From an uncultured Poribacteria bacterium (GTDB lineage Bacteria; Poribacteria; WGA-4E; WGA-3G), in contig OX639973.1 in NCBI GenBank assembly GCA_951828385.1, positions 1,240,001 to 1,304,000 of the forward strand: a stretch of 64,000 bases of DNA, in the 5' to 3' direction. This document shows positions 1 to 13,029 of this stretch, piece by piece (positions within the stretch are counted from its first letter, which is position 1; every line of letters starts with the position of its first letter). The notes under the pieces were generated by a model. The model worked only from the letters and a program-made list of their open reading frames with translations. It had not been told where the DNA came from and searched no databases. The translations under genes were made by a program, and so were the position numbers.

Positions 1-1575
1 ACACTTAACCTTGATGGCACATCAGAGGTATTAGTGAAAGGTTTCATCGCACCGATTGAATATACGGGCAGCAACTTTCATGTGGAATGGGACGAATTAG
101 CAAACTTACGAGTTGCCGAACCCGAAAAACGGTATCAGACTTCGGTTTTTCGTGCTTTTCTACCCGATAAGGCAGTATCTATAGGCGATCTCTGGCGGAT
201 TGAGGAAGAGAGCACGTTAGAATTACTGAGGCAACTGCATCCCAATCCAAGTCTAAAGATGCACATCAATATGGGCGATTCAAGCGGTTTGTGGGCGTGC
301 CTGCGTGCTTACAACGATCAATACGCTGACATTGTATTTCGCATCCATGCGGAATTCGTTTTAGAGAACGGCTGGTTTACGCCTTCTCAGTTTACTGGAC
401 ATCTTGTTATTGACCGAAGTAAAGAAAAAATTGTATTTTTCCAGATGTACGTTCCTAAAGCGGTCTTGAACTTTGATGTCAACTGGAAAAGATTTGGAGG
501 GCGCATTACTGACATCGGTTTTTGTCCGCAAATAGAACTCCGGGCTGGGACGCAGGATGTTCTCAAGGATACTGAATTCACAGAATCCATTACCAAAGAA
601 GCAGCTGAACGCATACTCATATTGCGTTTCTACAAGTTCCAGAAAATTAACTGGGTATCGTTAGCAGAAGCGTTGGAAATAGCACTGGCACAACAAAAAC
701 CGGTTCACGTCCTCTCAATAGATGGCCCCCTTGCCGACGAGTCGTGCTGAGGGAGCGGTAAAACCCTGAGGGCAGTTGTCCTCTCCGACGACCAAATTAT
801 AAAGTTCTTGAACGAAAATTTCATTAATACATGGGTGCCGAATTCTGAATTAGGGCGTACCCCGAGTTTGCGAGAACCGATTGTCAAGAGACGTGAACGC
901 GAAGGAACAACGTTTGACACAAATCACGCTTTGGCACAAGCAATCATGCGCAGTTGGAAGAAAGGGTCCCCCGTAGATTGTTTGGTTATCTCGCCGAAGT
1001 TTAAATTGATGGGTAGACAACCTGTCAATGAACTTCTCGGCTCAAGCAGCATACCAAGTTACCTGACATTTCTTGAGGATTCCTTGGCAGGAAAACAGCC
1101 GGGTTTGGACGAAGACACGGATACGACTACTGATTGGAAAACACTCCTTGAGTCAGGTGCTGTCGCTGTGGAGGGTTTGAATGTCGTGCTCACCCCTAAA
1201 AATCCCAAACAAGATGTCCTCAGCGTTTTGCGGAAGCCCGATACCGACACTCAAGATTACACTGTTATTGAGATTGATACAACAGCGTTTAAAGATAGTG
1301 GAATACTCACTATTGATATCTGGGTCGGAGATGCCGAGGTTGCCGGTTCATTTGACTTATTTACTGGTAACACGATAGAATTCGTGTCTGGCAATGCGCT
1401 TGTCTCTGTAAAGGATATTCCAACGAATCAAAGAGAAGTCATCAAATACTCTTTCGATCAAGGTCAAGTCTTTAAGTTAGGGGCTATCGCCAGCGCGAAA
1501 GGGAACGGGAAAATCAACGGATTTCTCGCAAAAATCTCTGTCGAACCCATATCCGGAAAAAACGAGGGAAATTAA
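1..1575 (+). CDS. SELENON-like selenoprotein, copy A (5' end outside window)
   Basis: The frame is open from base 1 and is interrupted only by TGA at 748-750, which I read as selenocysteine. Before it lies a domain with FTPSQFTGHLVIDR, MYVPKAVLNFDVNW and CPQIELRAG blocks. From memory these match the vertebrate SELENON segments FSPAQFTGHIIL, FVPNHRSLNVDMEW and IPQMELEA. Then comes a thioredoxin-like strand (KPVHVLSIDGPL), the redox centre ESCU-GSGK, and LSDDQIIKFLNENFINTW, again as in SELENON. The last ~130 residues form an extra domain (DYTVIEIDTTAFKDSG... to GKINGFLAKISVEP) shared with copies B and C and with the sigma factor at 7285. By analogy with copies B and C the missing start encodes a signal peptide, so the protein is probably exported. 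Its role is inferred to be redox. The substrate is unknown. Confidence 0.88.
748..783 (+). promoter_or_regulatory. UGA-Sec codon and candidate bacterial SECIS hairpin, copy A
   Basis: TGA is at 748-750. After 17 nt, GAGGG (768-772) pairs with TCCTC (779-783) around the hexaloop CAGTTG. The spacing and the G-U-containing loop fit bacterial SECIS elements, which lie inside the coding region just downstream of UGA and bind SelB. The pairing was done by eye. Confidence 0.65.
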
Positions 1576-2655
1576 ATGGATATAAAAATGACGAAATTAA
1601 TAAGTGTTATTCTCAGTTTGACCCTTGCTATATTTCTCGTAAACGGGTTTACTGAGAACTTACCTACAGGTGCCATCGCCCGAATTGATACTGGACAGAA
1701 ATCTGTTAACGCTATAGCATATTCTCGAGTCGCAAATCAACTTGCAGTGGCAGCGGCAAAAAACATCCATATCTATGATACGAACAGTTATAAAGAACTG
1801 ATGGTGTTTGTTGGACATACCGATTCAGTGTTAGCCGTCGCCTTTTCTCCAAATGGTAAACGTCTCGTGAGCGGCAGTTCCGATGAGACGGTGCGCTTAT
1901 GGAATTCAGACACCGGAAAACCCATTCAAACCCTTGAGGATCATACAGGACCTGTCAGTGCTGTTGCATTTTCCGCTGATGGCAAAGCATTTTGGGCTGC
2001 TGGTAACCAAGAGGCAAGATTTCGGTCTTGGTACTCAGTTGACGGTGGACTCAGAAGCGAAGGAGGCTACATGCCTACGGAATCATTCACCGCGACTGCA
2101 TTCTCACCCAATGGCTCTGTTGGAGCCAGGGCACTTGACAGCGAATCTGTTTTGGAAAAAGGCATGATAGAATTTCTGTTAGAAGGCGGTTGGCAGCTTG
2201 AAAGTAGCATTGTGTTCCTTTTTGGATATGACGGTGTAGGTATCTTATCTGCACATACGGATTCAGTGAATGTATTAACCCTTTATGCCGAACGGGAAGT
2301 CCTCGCCACTGGCAGCGCGGATAAGACGATCCAGCTATGGAATATAGAAGACACCAAGAAACCGCTTCATGTCCTCGCAGGGCATACGGAAGGTATTACT
2401 GCTATGGACTTCTCAGTGAATGGTAAACTGCTTGCCAGCGGAAGTTCTGATAAGACGGTCCGATTATGGGATGTTACAACTGGACGGCACCTTCGGACGC
2501 TTACTGGACATACAGGTGAAATCGGTGCGGTGACGTTCTTAGGAGACAAGGCACTCGCACGGATAACATTCGCTGAAGCCAAAGCACTTGCCAGTGGGAG
2601 TTCAGATGGCACCGTTTTCATTTGGGACCTGAATAAAATCGTCTCAACGGATTAG
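1576..2655 (+). CDS. exported WD40-repeat protein, copy A
   Basis: 359 residues. The N-terminus (LISVILSLTLAIFLVNG) is a signal peptide, so the propeller should be outside the cytoplasmic membrane. About six WD40 units follow, with clear VAFSPNGK, LVSGSSDETVRLWN and LASGSSDKTVRLWDV blocks, and a final unit ending in GTVFIWDLNK. This is enough for one beta-propeller, normally a protein-binding platform. The start directly abuts the stop of the SELENON-like gene (ATG at 1576; a second ATG at 1588 aligns with copy B's start). The two genes are therefore probably cotranscribed and translationally coupled. An interaction with the selenoprotein is inferred from this arrangement only. Confidence 0.85.
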   Translation: MDIKMTKLISVILSLTLAIFLVNGFTENLPTGAIARIDTGQKSVNAIAYSRVANQLAVAAAKNIHIYDTNSYKELMVFVGHTDSVLAVAFSPNGKRLVSGSSDETVRLWNSDTGKPIQTLEDHTGPVSAVAFSADGKAFWAAGNQEARFRSWYSVDGGLRSEGGYMPTESFTATAFSPNGSVGARALDSESVLEKGMIEFLLEGGWQLESSIVFLFGYDGVGILSAHTDSVNVLTLYAEREVLATGSADKTIQLWNIEDTKKPLHVLAGHTEGITAMDFSVNGKLLASGSSDKTVRLWDVTTGRHLRTLTGHTGEIGAVTFLGDKALARITFAEAKALASGSSDGTVFIWDLNKIVSTD

Positions 2656-2734
2656 CGTTTATGTTATAATCTACATACGCAGACGGGCAAGATAACAGAT
2701 TTTTCAACGTGTGCTAACTGTAAGGAGATAGAAA

Positions 2735-4411
2735 ATGAAAACCTTAAGCGTTGCGCTACTCGTTCTAATAGTGATGAGTGGACAACTCAATGCCGACAAA
2801 CCCTCGGCAGCGAACAACAAAATTACACTTAACCTTGACGATACATCAGAAGTCTTAGTGACAGGCTTTATCGCACCGGTTGGAGAGAGTTTGTCCGATA
2901 ACTTTAAGCAGTGGGACGAGTTGGTAAATCTACGGGTTGCTGAACCTGAAAAACGGCATCCCGCATCGGTTTTCCAAGCGTTCCTTCCGAACAAACCGGT
3001 TTCAGTGGGTGATCTCTGGGTACCAGATATGCTAAGAGTCGTTACCTTGCTCAAGCAACTGCATCCGAATCCCAATTTCTTTCTCCATATCAATGCAGGG
3101 GATTCGTTCGGTTTGTGGGCATGTTTACGTGGTTACAACGACCAATACGCCGACATCGTATTTCGCATCCATGCAGAGTTCAGACTCAAAGATGGGTGGT
3201 TTACGCCATCGCAATTTACCGGACACCTTGTCATCGACCGGAACCAAGAGAAAGTCGCTTTCTTCGAGATGTATGTCCCTAAAAGCGTAATAAACTTTGA
3301 TGTTAACTGGAAAAGAGATAAAGGCTATGTTATCACAAGCACCGGTTTTTGCTCGCAAATGGAACTCCGTGCTGGAACGCAAGACCTTCTGGAAAACGTT
3401 GAATTCACGGAATCCATCACGCAAGCGGCCGCGGAACGCGCACTGATATTGCGTTTCTACAAGTCCCAACAAATTAACTGGGTGCCACTGGCTCAGGTGT
3501 TGGAGATAGCACAAGCACAGCAGAAACCGATTCATGTCATCTCTATAGATGGACCTTTGGTCGATGAGTCGTGCTGAGGGAGCGGCAAAAGCCTGAGGGC
3601 AGGTGTCCTCTCCGACGACAAAAATATCGAATTCATGAATGAAAACTTTATTAACGCTTGGATATTAAATACGGAATTAGATCGCACGTCTAAAAAGCAA
3701 GAACTCATAGCATATAGACAACAGCAAGGGTTCAAAGGTATTGACAAGACGCTTCCATTAGCACAAGCAATCATGAAAGGTTGGAAAAAACATTCACCCG
3801 CAGATTCTTTGGTGATCTCACCAAAATTGGAACTGATGGGTAGACTCCCCGTCAATGAACGGACACCACCCTACCAGGCGGCAAAGGGGTATCTTTTATT
3901 TCTCCAAGAATCCATGGATGGGAAACTCCCAGGGTTACGTGAGGAGACCTCACCACATTGGGATACGCTCTTTGAAACTGTTGTTGAATCCGGTGCTATT
4001 GTAGATGACGGTCTGAGCGTTGTACTTACCCGCGAGCACTCCGAGAAAGAAATTCTCAGTGTTTTTCGGACATCTGAGACCGACGCTCAGAATTACACTG
4101 TCGTTGAGATTGATGCAACAACGTTTAAAGATGGCGGCGTGCTTACGATTGATGTCTGGGTTGGGGAAGCCGAAATTTCGGGTTCATTTGATCTATTTGC
4201 TGGGGATACTACAGCCCTTGTCCGTGACAACGCACTCGCTTCTGCAACGGATATTCCAACGAATCAAAGAGAAATCATCAAGTATCCTTTCTCTCAAGGC
4301 AGAGTCTTTAAGTTAGGGGCTATTGGTAATTCCAGTGAGCAAGGCAAAATCAACGGTTTTCTCGCGAAAATCTCTGTGGAACCCGCGTCCGAAAAAAATG
4401 AGGGAAACTAA
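2735..4411 (+). CDS. SELENON-like selenoprotein, copy B
   Basis: 558 residues if TGA 3575-3577 is read as Sec281, next to Cys280 in DESCUGSGK. ATG 2735 has a good ribosome site (AAGGAG) and starts a signal peptide (SVALLVLIVMSGQLNA). Order: signal peptide; SELENON-type domain (~25-235) with FTPSQFTGHLV and SVINFDVNW; helical linker; thioredoxin-like segment with the SCU centre (~265-310); variable helical region; C-terminal beta-rich domain (~430-555). No stop occurs for 278 codons after the TGA, and identity with copies A and C continues straight through it, so a nonsense pseudogene is very unlikely. The gene lies 79 bp after WD40 copy A and 5 bp before WD40 copy B. No Cys version is present here for comparison. 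Confidence 0.9.
3575..3610 (+). promoter_or_regulatory. UGA-Sec codon and candidate bacterial SECIS hairpin, copy B
   Basis: TGA is at 3575-3577. The stem is GAGGG (3595-3599) with TCCTC (3606-3610), loop CAGGTG, which contains the GGU seen in the SelB-binding loop of the E. coli fdhF element. A small GGC-AAAA-GCC hairpin (3584-3593) precedes it. Confidence 0.68.
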
Positions 4412-4416
4412 AAAAC

Positions 4417-5445
4417 ATGAAAATGACCAAATTAGTAAGTTTTATTCCCATTTTGACCGTCGCTGTATTTCTCGCAAACGGGTTAGCAGGAGATTTACCG
4501 GTGGGTGCAATTGCTCGGATCGATGTCGGTGAGGGACCTATAAACGCCATCGCATACTCTCGATCCACAAATCGGATCGCTGTAGCCGCTGCGAACAGCA
4601 TCTATATCTACGATGCGAGCACCTACGAAAAACAAATGGTATTTACCGAACATACCGATTCGGTGTTAGCTGTCGCCTTTTCTCCGAACGGTAAACGTCT
4701 CGTGAGTGGCGGTTTGGATAAGACGGTCCGGTTGTGGAATGCCAACACCGGGAAACTCAGAAATATCCGCGAAGAACACGCAGCACCTGTGAATACGGTT
4801 GTGTTCTCTGTTGATGGTAAAAGGTTTTGGAGTGCAAGTAGCGAAAACAACACAATTCGGTCTTGGTATGCGCGTGATGGTGGGCGCTGGAGTTCTCAAA
4901 TTTCCCCACAGAAATATGTTACGTTCATAGCAATCGCATGTTCATACAAGGGAGCACCCGTGGCAAGGGCAAGAGCGTTAGATAGTATGAGTGATTGCAT
5001 TATTGAGTTCAGAGGCGGCGATCATTGGCATGTTGTAAGTGGACATACAGAACCAGTTAGCGTCCTAACCCTTTATGCGGATGGAAAAACCGTCGCGACT
5101 GGAAGCGCAGACAAGACAATCGAGGTGTGGAATAAGACAGACACCGACAAACCGCTTCATACGCTCATAGGGCACATAGGTGGTATTAGCGCTATGGATT
5201 TCTCAGTGGATGCTAAGCTTCTTGCCAGTGGGAGTTCAGATAAAACGGTTCGGTTGTGGGATCTCACGACGGGGCAATCCATCCAGAGATTCACAGGACA
5301 CACAAGTGAAGTCGGGGCAGTGACATTCTTGGAAGACAAAGCACTTGCGGGAATAGCACTCGCTAAAGGCAAGGCACTCGCCAGCGGAAGCTCAGATGGC
5401 ACCGTTTTCATTTGGGACCTGAATAAAATCGTCTCAGCGGATTAG
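4417..5445 (+). CDS. exported WD40-repeat protein, copy B
   Basis: 342 residues, a paralog of the gene at 1576. The signal peptide is LVSFIPILTVAVFLANG. WD40 blocks include VAFSPNGKRLVSGGLDKT, KTVATGSADKTIEVWN, LASGSSDKTVRLWDL and the closing GTVFIWDLNK. The third and fourth units are degenerate in both copies (SWYARDGG region). The gene starts 5 bp after the stop of SELENON-like copy B, repeating the arrangement of unit A, so the pair has been duplicated as a cassette. The spacers after the two WD40 genes are also alike: each has a TATAAT box soon after the stop, and the two share the run GTGCTAACTGTAAGGAG before the next start. Function unknown beyond a probable scaffold role in the periplasm. 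Confidence 0.85.
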   Translation: MKMTKLVSFIPILTVAVFLANGLAGDLPVGAIARIDVGEGPINAIAYSRSTNRIAVAAANSIYIYDASTYEKQMVFTEHTDSVLAVAFSPNGKRLVSGGLDKTVRLWNANTGKLRNIREEHAAPVNTVVFSVDGKRFWSASSENNTIRSWYARDGGRWSSQISPQKYVTFIAIACSYKGAPVARARALDSMSDCIIEFRGGDHWHVVSGHTEPVSVLTLYADGKTVATGSADKTIEVWNKTDTDKPLHTLIGHIGGISAMDFSVDAKLLASGSSDKTVRLWDLTTGQSIQRFTGHTSEVGAVTFLEDKALAGIALAKGKALASGSSDGTVFIWDLNKIVSAD

Positions 5446-5581
5446 CGTCTATATAATTTACACGCACAGACATCCGAAATAACAGACCTACGGAGTTTCT
5501 CATAAACACGACTTTTGTTAGTTAATCTCGCGTGAATACCTACATTTTTTTCAACTTGTGCTAACTGTAAGGAGATTAAAA

Positions 5582-7288
5582 ATGAAAACCTTAACTATTA
5601 CCCTTCTCATTCTAATAATCCTGAGTGGACAACTGAATGCTGACAATCACTCGGCAGCTGACAACAAAATTACACTTAAACTTACGGATACTTCCGAAAT
5701 CTCAGTGACAGGCTACATCGCACCGATTGAGAACACCGGTTCCAATTTCCATGTGGAGTGGGACGCGTTGGCAAATCTGCGGGTCGCTGAACCCGAAAAA
5801 CAGCACCCGACATCGGTTTTCCAATCTTTCCTGCCAAACAAACCGGTTGCGGTCGGTGAACTCTGGGCATTAGATGTCCGCGGCGTACTTGCACTGCTCA
5901 AGCAGCTGCATCCAAAGCCTAATCTATTTCTTCACATCAATTCAGGGGATTCGTATGGTTTGTGGGCATGCCTGCTTGCTTACAACGAGCAATACGCAGA
6001 CATCGTGTTTCGGATCCACGCAGAGTTCAGACTTGAGGATGGATGGTTTACACCGTCACAGTTTACTGGACATCTTGTGGTTGACCGGAACAAAGAGAAG
6101 GTCGCTTTCTTTGAGATGTACGTCCCTGAAGGCGTAATAAACTTTGATGTTAACTGGCAGCAAGATAAAAACGAGTCCCATTTTCATACGAGTACCGGTT
6201 TTTGCTCGAAAATTGAACTCCGCGCTGGGATGCAAAATCTTCTGAAGAGCATCAAATTCACAGAAACCATTGCCCAAGAAACCGCGGAACGCGCCTTGAT
6301 ACACAAGTTCTACAGATCGGAGCGAATTAATTGGGTGCCGCCGGAGCAGGTACTGGCGCAGGCAGAAGCACAGCAAAAACCGATTCATGCGATTTCCATA
6401 GATGGACCGTTAGTCGATGAGTCGTGCTGAGGGAGCGGCAAAAGCCTGAGGGCAGGTGTCCTCTCCGATGACCGTATTATCAAATTCTTGAACGAAAATT
6501 TCATCAACACTTGGGTATCAAATGTCGAATTAGGACGGACCCGCAATAAGCGCGCCTTCATTGCAGCAAGAATCCAGCAAGGCTACAAACCGTTTGATAA
6601 AACGCGTCCGTTAGCACAGGCAATCATGAAGGGATGGAAGTTACGTTCCCCCGCTGACTCTTTAGTGATCTCAACGGATCTTGATGTAATGGGCAGACTC
6701 CCTGTCAATGAACGGATTTCTCCCTACAACGGACCCAAAGGTTACCTTTTATTTCTCCAAGAATCCTTAGCTGAGAAACGTCCGGGATTGCCTGAACCTG
6801 CCCGCGAACCGCCATCATCGGATTGGAATACGTTCCTTGAAACGGCTGTCGAATCCGGTGCTATTGCTAATGACAGTTTGAGCGTTGTGCTCACCCGTGA
6901 GCATCCTGAGCAAGAAGTTCTCAGCATTTTCCGAGCAGCCGGACAGGGCTATCAAGACTATACCGTCGTTGAAATTGATACGACTGTGTTTAAAAACGGA
7001 GGTGTGCTGACGATTACTATTTCAGTCGGCAATACTGAATCCCCTGGTTCATTTGATCTTTATGATGGTAATACTGCGCTTCCCAGAGAAGGCCCCCCTG
7101 ATGGTGCGCTTACCTCGGCGTGGGATGTTCCGCCCGGTACAAAAGGCACAATCGAGTATCCTTTTCAGCAGGGCAAAGTTTTTCGGTTAGGGGCTACGGG
7201 CAGTTGGCTCAGTGAGAAAGGCAAAATCAACGGTTTCCTCGCGGAATTTTCCGTGGAACCCACACCAGAAAAAGGCGACAAAAAATGA
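5582..7288 (+). CDS. SELENON-like selenoprotein, copy C
   Basis: 568 residues with TGA 6428-6430 read as Sec283 after Cys282. ATG 5582 is preferred over an upstream TTG because AAGGAG lies 7 nt before it and because the signal peptide (TITLLILIILSGQLNA) then starts as in copy B. Domain order is as in copies A and B: FTPSQFTGHLVVDR and EGVINFDVNW, then ESCU-GSGK, then KFLNENFINTWV, then the C-terminal domain. It differs from its sisters by an insertion in the C-terminal domain (REGPPDGALTSAW region). Downstream it is not paired with a WD40 gene but overlaps the sigma-factor gene by ATGA (7285-7288). This suggests coupled synthesis of an exported redox protein and a regulator. Confidence 0.9.
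6428..6463 (+). promoter_or_regulatory. UGA-Sec codon and candidate bacterial SECIS hairpin, copy C
   Basis: TGA is at 6428-6430. Stem GAGGG (6448-6452) pairs with TCCTC (6459-6463), loop CAGGTG, 17 nt between UGA and stem, identical to copy B. Confidence 0.68.
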
Positions 7289-8763: not shown

Positions 8764-8792
8764 TTGACATCCACCGTAGTTTCCTATATAAT
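8764..8792 (+). promoter_or_regulatory. consensus sigma-70-type promoter of the peroxiredoxin-like gene
   Basis: TTGACA (8764-8769), 17-bp spacer, TATAAT (8787-8792). Both boxes are exact consensus. The ATG at 8799 lies 6 bp beyond the -10 box, so transcription should start at or next to the start codon. Confidence 0.8.
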
Positions 8793-8798
8793 ATCTCC

Positions 8799-9290
8799 AT
8801 GCCACGTAAAAATAAAATTCTCAACATCGGTGATACAGCACCCTTATTCGCGCTGCCATCACATCAAAGAGAGAACATCTCTCTTGAAGCATACCGCGAC
8901 GCACAACATGTCGTCCTCACCTTCTTCCGAGGCACATGGTGACCGAACAGTCGTCGTCAGTTGTCGGCAGTGCAGGAGAATATCAAGGCTTACGAAGCAT
9001 ATAACGCCACACCGCTCGCTATCGCTGGACAGTGGCCCCGTGAATTCCGAGGTTATACCGAAAAAAACGGGATCACATTCCCATTACTGGTCGACAAAAC
9101 GCGGGATGTCATCAAACGCTACGGGGTCTATCACTGGTTGAGTCTCGATGCCTATAACATCGCACGTCCGGCGACGTTTATCATAGACAAAGCAGGAATC
9201 ATCAGATATATGTACATCGGCTCACACCAATTCGATCTCGTCCAACAGACAGAAGTTCTCGAATCTTTGAAAACCGTGGCGGAACGATAA
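8799..9290 (+). CDS. peroxiredoxin-like selenoprotein
   Basis: 163 residues with TGA 8940-8942 as Sec48. ATG 8799 opens MPRKNKILNIGDTAPLFALP, the usual AhpC/TSA/Prx beginning, followed by LTFFRGTW-U-PNSRRQL. In Cys relatives the block is RG-W-C-P-x-C, so the TGA falls exactly on the peroxidatic Cys, and the usual second Cys is Ser51. The frame stays open to 9290 with further Prx features (FPLLVDKTRDVIKRYGVY, RPATFIIDKAGIIRYMY). Predicted reaction: thiol-dependent reduction of peroxide in the cytoplasm, as there is no signal peptide. No ribosome site is possible if the mRNA is leaderless. The alternative, a nonsense mutation or sequencing error, is less likely given the position and the three other Sec-type TGAs next door. 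Confidence 0.85.
8940..8968 (+). promoter_or_regulatory. UGA-Sec codon and candidate SECIS hairpin of the peroxiredoxin-like gene
   Basis: TGA is at 8940-8942. GTCG (8953-8956) pairs with CGGC (8965-8968, one G-T pair). After a T-T mismatch the loop is CAGTTG (8958-8963), the same hexaloop as in SELENON-like copy A. The stem is short and nearer to the UGA (10 nt) than in the other three, so it is less certain. Confidence 0.45.
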
Positions 9291-9366: not shown

Positions 9367-10470
9367 ATGGACGCAGCACATATAGCCTTCATGCAACGCG
9401 CACTGAAGTTGGCAGGGCAAGTAAAAGGGCGTACCAGTCCCAATCCGCTCGTTGGGGCGGTTATTGTAAAAGGCGGTAAGGTGATCGGTGAAGGTTACCA
9501 TCAGAAAGCAGGAACCCCACACGCCGAAGTCCATGCGCTGAACGCCGTAGGCGAGAACGCCAAAGGCGCGACACTTTACACGAACCTTGAGCCGTGTTGC
9601 CACTGGGGACGCACCCCGCCTTGCACAGAAGCACTGATTCGCGCAGGCATCGCTGAGGTCTACATCGCAGGAGTTGATCCGAATCCGAGTGTTGCGGGCA
9701 ACGGCGTGCGTCAACTTGAAAAGGCGGGCATCTGTGTCCATGTAGGTGTGTGTCAGCAGGAAGCAGAAAAATTAAACGAGGTTCACACGAAATATATTCA
9801 GACCGGTCTGCCGTTTGTTATCCTCAAGATCGCCATGAGCCTTGATGGGAAAATAGCGACCGCTTCTGGTGAATCACAGTGGATTACGTCCGAGGCATCA
9901 CGCCAACGCGGGCATGAGATTCGGGATGCCGTAGATGCGATCCTCGTCGGCAGGGGCACAGTCGAGCGCGATAACCCCGCGCTGACGACGCGGCTTCAAG
10001 ACAAACAGGGGCTGGATGCGATCCGTATTGTGATGGATTCACACGGGAGAACGCCCACGGACGCGCGTATTTTTAACGCCGAAAGCAGTGCCGGTATTAT
10101 TGTTGCGGTAACATCAGCAGCACCTATAGAAAACATCAAAGCACTCGAAGCGTCAGGCGCGGAAGTCATAACTGTGCCAGATGCACACGGAAACCGAGTC
10201 TGTTTTAAGGGGCTGATGGAGATATTAGGCAAACGTGAGATAACGAGCATATTGATAGAAGGCGGCGGCGAAATCAACGCATCTGCTGTCGCAGCCGGAA
10301 TCGTTGATAAGGTTATGTGTTTCGTTGCACCCATAATCATTGGTGGACGGAATGCACCTGGACCTATTGGCGGTGAAGGGGTTTCCAGTTTGATGGATGT
10401 GCCTCACTTGCGGCAAATCCGTATCACACAGATTCCCGGTTCCGACTTTCTCATCGAGGGGTATCTATAG
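9367..10470 (+). CDS. ribD: bifunctional riboflavin biosynthesis deaminase/reductase RibD
   Basis: 367 residues, normal length. The N-terminal deaminase carries the zinc site H52-A-E54 (TPHAEVHAL) and PCC...C (Cys77, Cys86 in LEPCCHWGRTPPC). The C-terminal reductase begins near residue 150 (LKIAMSLDGKIATASGESQW) and has ILIEGGGEINAS near its end. It deaminates 2,5-diamino-6-ribosylamino-pyrimidinone phosphate and reduces the ribose with NADPH, in the cytoplasm. It is the first gene of a rib cluster; ribE follows after 1 bp. The order ribD-ribE-ribBA-ribH is the classical one. Confidence 0.97.
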   Translation: MDAAHIAFMQRALKLAGQVKGRTSPNPLVGAVIVKGGKVIGEGYHQKAGTPHAEVHALNAVGENAKGATLYTNLEPCCHWGRTPPCTEALIRAGIAEVYIAGVDPNPSVAGNGVRQLEKAGICVHVGVCQQEAEKLNEVHTKYIQTGLPFVILKIAMSLDGKIATASGESQWITSEASRQRGHEIRDAVDAILVGRGTVERDNPALTTRLQDKQGLDAIRIVMDSHGRTPTDARIFNAESSAGIIVAVTSAAPIENIKALEASGAEVITVPDAHGNRVCFKGLMEILGKREITSILIEGGGEINASAVAAGIVDKVMCFVAPIIIGGRNAPGPIGGEGVSSLMDVPHLRQIRITQIPGSDFLIEGYL

Positions 10471-10471
10471 C

Positions 10472-11143
10472 ATGTTTACCGGGATTGTTGAAGAGCTCGG
10501 AACCATCAGAAATATCCAGCGTAAATCCGAAGGTGCTATCCTCGAGATTCAGGCGACTGATGTTCTCTCCGATGCGGAAATCGGTGACAGTATCGCCGTT
10601 GACGGTGTTTGTCTCACAATCCGTTCCCTTGTACCGGAGGCGTTCACCGCGGATATATCTGCTGAAACCCTACGCCGCACGACATTAGGCGAACGGAGAG
10701 TCGGTGAACAGGTTAACCTTGAACGCTCACTCCGGTTAAGCGACAGATTAGGCGGACACCTTGTACTCGGACACGTAGATGAGGTTGCAACGATCTGCGG
10801 GTGGAAGGACGAAGGCGATGCCTCCTTGATGCAGGTAACAATGAGCGACAATATCAGACGCTACATCGCCTACAAAGGTTCTATCACTGTTGACGGTATC
10901 AGCTTAACTGTATCAGGCATTCACACAGATGCCTTTGAAGTTGCCTTGATTCCGCATACAAAGCAGGTCACAACTTTACGAACAAAACGGAACGGGGCAA
11001 AGGTCAACCTCGAAGTTGACATCGTTGCGCGTTATATTGAAACACTTCTCAAAAATCCTGAAGCGGAGAAGGGGTGGACCGAGCAACCCCCTTCCGATAC
11101 ACTCAATTTGAGTTTTTTAGCGAAACACGGCTATATTAGTTAA
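10472..11143 (+). CDS. ribE: riboflavin synthase alpha chain RibE
   Basis: 223 residues from ATG 10472 (MFTGIVEELGTI, the universal start of this family). Two lumazine-binding repeats are visible: GDSIAVDGVCLTI/VNLERSLRLSDRLGGHLVLGHVD and ITVDGISLTVSGI/VNLEVDIVARYIE. It dismutates two 6,7-dimethyl-8-ribityllumazine molecules to riboflavin. A ~20-residue tail (KGWTEQPPSDTLNLSFLAKHGYIS) extends past the usual end. An upstream in-frame start inside ribD is not needed. Coupled to ribD by a 1-bp gap. Confidence 0.97.
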   Translation: MFTGIVEELGTIRNIQRKSEGAILEIQATDVLSDAEIGDSIAVDGVCLTIRSLVPEAFTADISAETLRRTTLGERRVGEQVNLERSLRLSDRLGGHLVLGHVDEVATICGWKDEGDASLMQVTMSDNIRRYIAYKGSITVDGISLTVSGIHTDAFEVALIPHTKQVTTLRTKRNGAKVNLEVDIVARYIETLLKNPEAEKGWTEQPPSDTLNLSFLAKHGYIS

Positions 11144-11280
11144 CAGTTAACAGTTAACAGTTTTCGGTTAAGAAGTTTCTTGTGGCAGTAACATATTGTG
11201 TAACCGCCACAAGCGTTTACCGACCACTGACAACTGACAACCATTCCTCTGATGACCGATGACTGATAACCACAAAACGG
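11139..11280 (+). repeat. intergenic short-repeat array (TTAACAGTTAACAG / ACTGATAAC type)
   Basis: Begins with three tandem TTAACAG units at the ribE stop and ends with ACTGACAACTGACAACC and ATGACTGATAACC. It belongs to the repeat family seen in most gaps of this window and splits the rib cluster into ribDE and ribBA-H. Confidence 0.7.
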
Positions 11281-11289
11281 TAGGCAAGA

Positions 11290-12522
11290 ATGCCAAACAA
11301 TTTTAATACTATTCCTGAAGCACTCTCCGCAATCGAAAACGGGGAAATGATTATCGTCGTTGATGAACCCGACCGTGAGAACGAAGGCGATCTCATCATG
11401 GCGGCTGAAAAGGTGACAGCAGAGACTATTAATTTCATGGCGAAATACGGCAGGGGGTTGATATGTCTACCTACCTGTTCAAAACGTCTCGCCGAACTTG
11501 AACTCCACCCCATGGTCGCCGCGAATACAGCGCAGATGCAGACGGCGTTTACAGTCACTATCGACGCGAAAGAGGTGACAACCGGTATCTCCGCGCAAGA
11601 ACGCGCATACACGATCCGGAAATTCGTTGATGCTGATGCAATACCCTCAGACTTCGTTCGCCCCGGGCACATCTTCCCGTTAGAGGCAAAACCCGGTGGT
11701 GTCCTACGACGTGCTGGACATACTGAAGCCACCGTTGATTTAGCACAGATGGCGGGGTTATATCCGGCAGGGGTCCTCTGTGAGATACTCAACGAGGACG
11801 GCACCATGGCACGCGTCCCGGAATTGATGAAGTTCGCCGCGCAACATCAACTTAAAATTATCACAATCTCTGACCTGATCGCATACCGCCGCCAGACAGA
11901 AACACTGATTAGACGCGTCGCAACGGCTGATATACCCACCGCACACGGCGAATTCAAACTCCACGCCTACGAAAGCACAGATACATCAGGTGAAAGTGTC
12001 GAAACGGATAAAACGCACATCGCACTCACACAAGGCGATATTGCCGATACAACCCCGCTTTTGGTCCGCGTGCATTCGCAATGCCTAACGGGTGATGTCT
12101 TCGGTTCACTCAGATGCGATTGTGGTGAACAACTCGAAATCGCACTCCAAACCATTGAAAAAGAAGGCAGAGGCGTGCTCCTCTATATGCGGCAAGAAGG
12201 CAGAGGGATGGGACTCAAGGAGAAACTCCGTGCCTATCAGCTACAAGACAATGACGGATTAGATACCGTCGAAGCAAACGAACATCTCGGCTATCCCGCG
12301 GATTTGCGAGATTATGGCATCGGTGCACAAATATTAGCCGATTTAGGCGTTCAAAAAATGCGCCTGATGACAAACAATCCGCAAAAGGTCAAAGGGTTAG
12401 ACGGATACGGACTTGAAATCGTTGAGCGCGTTCCGCTCCAAACCAAACCCAATTCCTTTAACCGCGGATATTTGGAAACGAAACGTTCCAAACTTGGACA
12501 CCTCCTCCTCGATGAGGAATAA
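11290..12522 (+). CDS. ribBA: bifunctional DHBP synthase / GTP cyclohydrolase II RibBA
   Basis: 410 residues. The N-terminal half is 3,4-dihydroxy-2-butanone-4-phosphate synthase ([40 protein letters not shown]). The C-terminal half is GTP cyclohydrolase II, with the zinc cluster [20 protein letters not shown] and [11 protein letters not shown]. Both starting reactions of riboflavin synthesis are thus on one chain. The start ATG 11290 follows the repeat array with only a weak ribosome site (GGTAGG). ribH is 27 bp downstream. Confidence 0.97.
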
Positions 12523-12549
12523 AGAATAGGAGAGTTAACCGATAAACCT

Positions 12550-13029
12550 ATGCCAAACGTCTACGAAGGCAACCTTCTCGGCGAAGGACTCACATTCGGC
12601 ATTGTTGTCAGCCGATTCAATAGTTTTGTTACCGAAAAACTCCTCGCTGGCGCGTTAGATGCCCTAAAACGGCACGGCGTTGACTTGGATCAGGTCGATG
12701 TTTTTTGGACTCCCGGTGCCTTTGAGATTCCCGGAATCGCCAAACGCCTCGCCGAAAGCAAAAAATATGATGCTGTCCTCTGTATCGGTGCAGTCATCCG
12801 CGGCGCGACCCCCCACTTCGATTACGTCGCCGCTGAAAGTGCGAAGGGCATTGCGCAGTTATCCGCCAGTACGGGTGTCCCGGTTATCTATGGTGTCATC
12901 ACGACAGATACAATAGAGCAGGCACTTGAACGCGCCGGTATCAAGGCAGGCAACAAGGGTTCTGAAGCCGCCATCGCCGGGATTGAAACAGCCAACCTCT
13001 ATAAAACAGTTGAAAAAATTACTACATGA
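12550..13029 (+). CDS. ribH: 6,7-dimethyl-8-ribityllumazine synthase RibH
   Basis: 159 residues, normal length. Hallmarks: [36 protein letters not shown] (substrate loop), [20 protein letters not shown] (phosphate and catalytic His region), [16 protein letters not shown]. It condenses DHBP with the ribitylamino-uracil made by RibD. It usually forms a 60-mer or pentamer. Its ATG follows AGGAG by 14 nt, which is rather long. Last gene of the rib cluster. Confidence 0.97.

Follow-up and report, generated by a model that had tools for sequence, protein, structure and literature searches.

Gene content of the locus

Within the analysed window, a 64,000-nucleotide stretch of a Poribacteria genome assembled as a single contig of 6.66 Mb, positions 8799–9290 of the forward strand hold a putative selenoprotein gene with a peroxiredoxin-like (AhpC/TSA) fold, encoding 163 residues before a TAA stop and carrying TGA as codon 48 (8940–8942, forward strand). 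With the TGA taken as a residue, the frame translates as MPRKNK...FFRGTW-U-PNSRRQL...AER and gives a Pfam AhpC-TSA (PF00578) match of 99.6 bits over residues 10–138; since a single match covers this range, both flanks of the TGA form one domain. The initial annotation had placed the TGA within FRGTW-U-PNS in a frame intact on either side, and both points are confirmed here, by the position of the TGA as codon 48 of this frame and by the single domain match together with purifying selection on both flanks (see below). Its warning that conventional calling would miss the selenoprotein also proved correct, with ORF calling returning only a 109-amino-acid ORF with a TTG start (8961–9290) and a 47-codon stub. 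At E ≤0.001, Pfam reported PF00578 and PF08534 (Redoxin) alone for the protein, with no match to GSHPx (PF00255); nor did the protein match PF13911, a Pfam family related to cd02970, and a PHROGs search returned one weak match of unknown function and nothing else.

A near-perfect sigma-70 promoter (TTGACA-17-TATAAT; 8764–8798, forward strand) ends 6 nt before the ATG at 8799, so that the predicted transcription start falls at or beside the A of the ATG, and the sequence predicts a leaderless selenoprotein mRNA. The genome holds 25 matches to the strict promoter pattern, against two in a reversed control, and TTGACA lies at the same distance from the gene in 45 of 53 orthologs. Downstream on the forward strand is the ribD ORF (9367–10470), the first in a ribD-ribE-ribAB-ribH run (9367–13029). 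ribD is the co-oriented downstream neighbour in 44 of 53 ortholog loci, as a rule at a distance of 34–370 nt, and also follows the gene in two genomes from another family of the order (L145 and L149); that this neighbourhood reflects a functional link between the selenoprotein gene and flavins is only a guess. Further upstream, positions 1–7288 of the window are occupied by repeated blocks of similar ORFs (34–2655, 2735–5445 and 5558–7288), which include WD-repeat-like proteins and look like tandem duplications.

Conservation and decoding of the TGA codon

Codon 48 was TGA in 53 of 54 orthologs and TGT (Cys) in the remaining one (L084), within an invariant RGTW[U/C]PNSRRQL context, and close orthologs were found in Poribacteria only. 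In a whole-genome search of 98 relatives, almost all orthologs carried one internal TGA; genome G038, the species with the Cys copy, had none. In a maximum-likelihood tree the Cys copy nests inside the TGA-bearing clade together with L091 and L094 (the exact branching order of these three has low support), indicating that the change from selenocysteine (Sec) to Cys is derived there; G038 also retains a sister gene with a TGA (L144), which means that the Cys was not imposed by an inability to decode Sec. Against ten orthologs, in pairs with unsaturated synonymous sites, dN/dS was 0.05–0.16 on each side of the TGA, showing purifying selection on both flanks of the reading frame. A single genome could not have ruled out a pseudogene or a sequencing error as the source of the stop; the same TGA nevertheless recurs in independent assemblies from >50 species, and these comparative data, along with the selection on both flanks, contradict that explanation and leave it a negligible probability.

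The host genome encodes a complete Sec machinery: a tRNA-Sec scoring 76.4 bits (cut-off 47) adjoins selB, selA and selD are present, and tRNA-Sec, SelA, SelB and SelD all exceed their curated cut-offs. The selD gene (L152; G000:C1:1330118-1331041) itself contains one in-frame TGA, so the selenophosphate synthetase looks like a selenoprotein in its own right. TGA is also the stop codon of 7 of the 33 mechanically called window ORFs of at least 250 amino acids and the final stop in 20 orthologs of the selenoprotein gene, showing that UGA is not globally reassigned. Reading of the TGA as another residue such as Trp, or plain readthrough or suppression without selenium, would be in keeping with the energetic weakness of the window's candidate Sec insertion element (SECIS) and its lack of significant covariation. 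In opposition to such a reading, the sole substitution among orthologs is Cys and not Trp, Cys also occurs at this column in sister proteins, the adjacent invariant Trp47 is encoded by TGG, the Sec machinery is complete, and TGA terminates other genes as well as those 20 orthologs; we therefore regard decoding without selenium as very unlikely. The check proposed in the initial annotation, that column 48 should be Cys or Sec, gave U or C only, both among orthologs and across sister families. Column 51 in the sister families is Cys, and the CPxC-type relatives to which the annotation had referred were found as UPFC, UPNC, UPDC, UPYC, CPVC and CPYC. From these comparisons we conclude that the gene at 8799–9290 very probably encodes a UxxS selenoprotein of the AhpC/TSA lineage with Sec at codon 48. 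SelB and tRNA-Sec would then decode the UGA at 8940–8942, presumably aided by a hairpin just downstream.

Candidate signals downstream of the UGA

At the position expected for a bacterial SECIS, codons 51–55 (AGY CGY CGY CAG TTR; 8949–8963, forward strand) are synonymously constrained, ranking sixth, seventh, eighth, first and fourth lowest in codon diversity among the near-invariant residues of the gene. Gln54 is CAG in 54 of 54 orthologs, where CAG and CAA are used about equally elsewhere in these genes, and Leu55 is TTR in all 54, where TTR makes up around a quarter of Leu codons elsewhere; such constraint after the UGA is expected from a nucleotide-level signal such as a SECIS. A candidate hairpin lies at 8953–8968 (forward strand), with six pairs and one U-U mismatch in the window copy and an apical loop AGUU at 8959–8962, 16 nt after the UGA. 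Across 49 distinct orthologs, 82% of its cells were paired, compared with ≤74% when the stem was slid along the alignment. Neither of two hand-drawn stems, this hairpin included, displayed covariation beyond shuffles, and RNAalifold on the gapless region recovered only a short, weak stem. In the window copy, a 66-nt fold around the UGA was no more stable than shuffled sequences and a 33-nt fold no better than synonymous recodings, and no SECIS family matched when the window was scanned against Rfam with gathering thresholds. The putative SECIS is thus well localised through codon constraint, with the hairpin shape at 8953–8968 as a candidate. In sister UPxC genes from other genomes of the class (L138, L139, L140, L141 and L142), we observed a strong hairpin, CARCUC-NNN-GAGYUG, of six to seven pairs at approximately +15 to +31 after the UGA, a spacing that differs from that of the window family.

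Fold and position of the active site

An AlphaFold2 model, built from a 35-row alignment with Cys modelled instead of Sec, reached a pLDDT of 92.5 and a pTM of 0.90, and places the start of a helix (residues 49–60) directly after Sec48. Among the best 50 PDB entries from Foldseek and VIA-align, the top folds were Sulfolobus Bcp4 and Mycobacterium tuberculosis AhpE (Z 25–26, rmsd ~1.4–1.5 Å over ~152–156 residues). VIA-align paired model residues 6..162 with AhpE 0..153, consistent with an alignment offset of 6 at the start. No glutathione peroxidase (GPx) appeared among these 50 entries, which is uninformative on GPx likeness. By profile and modelled fold, the protein belongs to the AhpC/TSA (peroxiredoxin-like) superfamily.

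One element of the initial annotation has to be revised. It had described Sec as standing in for the peroxidatic Cys and Ser for the second Cys; when aligned by phmmer with AhpE and 2ywn, and likewise in an alignment of 35 sequences, the protein instead has Sec48 on the Thr of the peroxiredoxin PxxxTxxC motif, Ser51 (AGY; 8949–8951, forward strand) on the peroxidatic Cys, which is also the second Cys of a CxxC motif, and Pro124 on the conserved Arg. A true peroxiredoxin paralog in the same genome (L003) aligns in the same manner, and across these peroxiredoxins column 48 is Thr/Ser and column 51 the peroxidatic Cys. On these alignments Sec48 corresponds to the first Cys of a thioredoxin-like CxxC, not to the peroxidatic residue. 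The CDD description of cd02970, in which CxxC peroxiredoxin-like members align likewise and are not known to keep the other peroxiredoxin catalytic residues, agrees with this placement. The window protein accordingly has neither the PxxxTxxC signature of catalytic peroxiredoxins, with its peroxidatic Cys (or Sec), nor their conserved Arg, and its motif holds no second Cys or Sec, Ser51 being Ser in 54 of 54 orthologs; what it does carry, within a peroxiredoxin-like domain, is a UxxS motif (U48-P-N-S51). Two further stretches, GQWPRE and YNIARP, are invariant in orthologs and specific to the family, with GQWPRE missing from the UPxC sister proteins, and both are candidate substrate-pocket stretches.

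Elsewhere in the host genome, two tandem peroxiredoxin domains (L006 and L008; G000:C1:3556994-3560887) share one frame with a TGA each, in the motifs FTGG-U-TAELC and FGRG-U-TAQVC. Sec there aligns at column 51, the true peroxidatic position, and by its sequence this gene is a double Sec-peroxiredoxin. Three additional AhpC/TSA- or thioredoxin-like genes (L002, L004 and L005) have a TGA in a redox motif (RGGW-U-PFC, RMGT-U-GFC and QTY-U-PVC, respectively), suggesting a sizeable selenoproteome.

Proposed chemistry

The chain encoded in the window has no Cys residues at all, and outside codon 48 residues 1–160 are Cys-free in 30 of 53 full-length orthologs. The other 23 have Cys156, to which L090 adds Cys68, so that an external resolving thiol is certain for the Cys-free copies only; a resolving residue within the motif is absent from every ortholog. 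We propose that the selenolate of Sec48, at the N-terminus of helix 49–60, would attack an oxidised substrate such as a peroxide or a disulfide. In this Cys-free chain the product would be a selenenic acid or else a selenosulfide shared with an external thiol, and glutathione, thioredoxin or a comparable partner would then reduce it, a chemistry unlike the Cys-Thr-Arg chemistry of peroxiredoxins. Selenocysteine GPx enzymes (UxxT) and monothiol CxxS redoxins similarly use one reactive residue that is reduced by an external thiol, and it is this likeness that makes a one-Sec scheme the simplest to propose. On balance, a GPx- or monothiol-redoxin-like mechanism based on one Sec, with an external thiol as reductant, appears the probable one. 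The genome does contain a match to the Pfam glutathione-synthetase ATP-grasp domain (60.4 bits), but this model also matches control genomes not known for glutathione.

Alternatively, the protein could be a true one-Sec peroxiredoxin, in which Sec48 acts with the invariant Thr46, Arg44 and Arg123 to reduce H2O2 or alkyl hydroperoxides. Its best structural neighbours are 1-Cys AhpE and Bcp4, and the invariant Arg123 is only one residue off the catalytic Arg column, both of which speak for this reading; yet the peroxidatic-Cys column is Ser, the Thr column Sec and the Arg column Pro, and the genome already has two peroxiredoxin domains with Sec at the true peroxidatic position. On this evidence a true peroxiredoxin seems rather unlikely. 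We give similarly little credence to a more elaborate scenario, in which a Cys-free one-Sec peroxidase has converged on the Sec-GPx enzymes, with Gln78-Trp79 as a GPx-like activating pair, a tie to flavin supply through the ribD-ribE-ribAB run and translation from a leaderless mRNA; the likening of the invariant Gln78 and Trp79 to the Gln and Trp of GPx is speculation. If true, a peroxiredoxin-fold enzyme would have its reactive residue on the thioredoxin/GPx site, displaced by three positions relative to the peroxidatic one.

Relation to known selenoproteins

The favoured reading, a UxxS protein with one Sec and an external reductant, adds a well-supported, order-wide selenoprotein that standard gene calling overlooks to the Poribacteria, sponge-associated bacteria that have kept this small redox protein across the group. 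The natural Cys ortholog, in a family often otherwise free of Cys, offers a test of a lone Sec in a peroxiredoxin fold. In a sponge metagenome, SelA and SelB co-occur in most symbiont bins from various phyla (PMC5649159), and none of the open-access papers that we searched combines 'Poribacteria' and 'selenoprotein'.

Reviews list among selenoproteins both peroxiredoxins (TxxU) and peroxiredoxin-like thiol:disulfide oxidoreductases (UxxC, UxxU) (PMC13188914, PMC1088965, PMC2398784), with the peroxiredoxin-like family described as carrying UXXC where Sec-peroxiredoxins have TXXU (PMC1088965). The window protein shares with the UxxC/UxxU group (PF00578; 'Prx-like 1' of the GOS survey) the AhpC/TSA fold and a Sec at the thioredoxin-like first-Cys position. 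It differs from that group in having Ser at the second-Cys position in every ortholog, in its invariant GQWPRE and YNIARP, and in the restriction of its close orthologs to Poribacteria. A UxxS selenoprotein of the peroxiredoxin-like family cd02970 (MDX2448127.1), which PMC13188914 lists and credits to the Olavius algarvensis symbiont study, has in common with ours a peroxiredoxin-like domain with UxxS, a comparison made by motif description only. Since UxxC/UxxU and UxxS selenoproteins of the peroxiredoxin-like type are already listed, the kind is known and the Poribacterial protein is an added member.

Sec-peroxiredoxins (TxxU), such as the tandem domains of the same genome, share superfamily and fold with the window protein, but those domains carry their Sec three residues later, at the peroxidatic position, and keep the Arg column. 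M. tuberculosis AhpE and Sulfolobus Bcp4 likewise share the fold, whereas their catalytic Thr, Cys and Arg columns are Sec, Ser and Pro in the window protein. The window protein lies outside the family of GPx selenoenzymes (UxxT) by sequence, with Pfam giving AhpC-TSA and Redoxin alone, but like them it has one Sec at the first-Cys position of a thioredoxin fold, and the motif offers no further redox residue.
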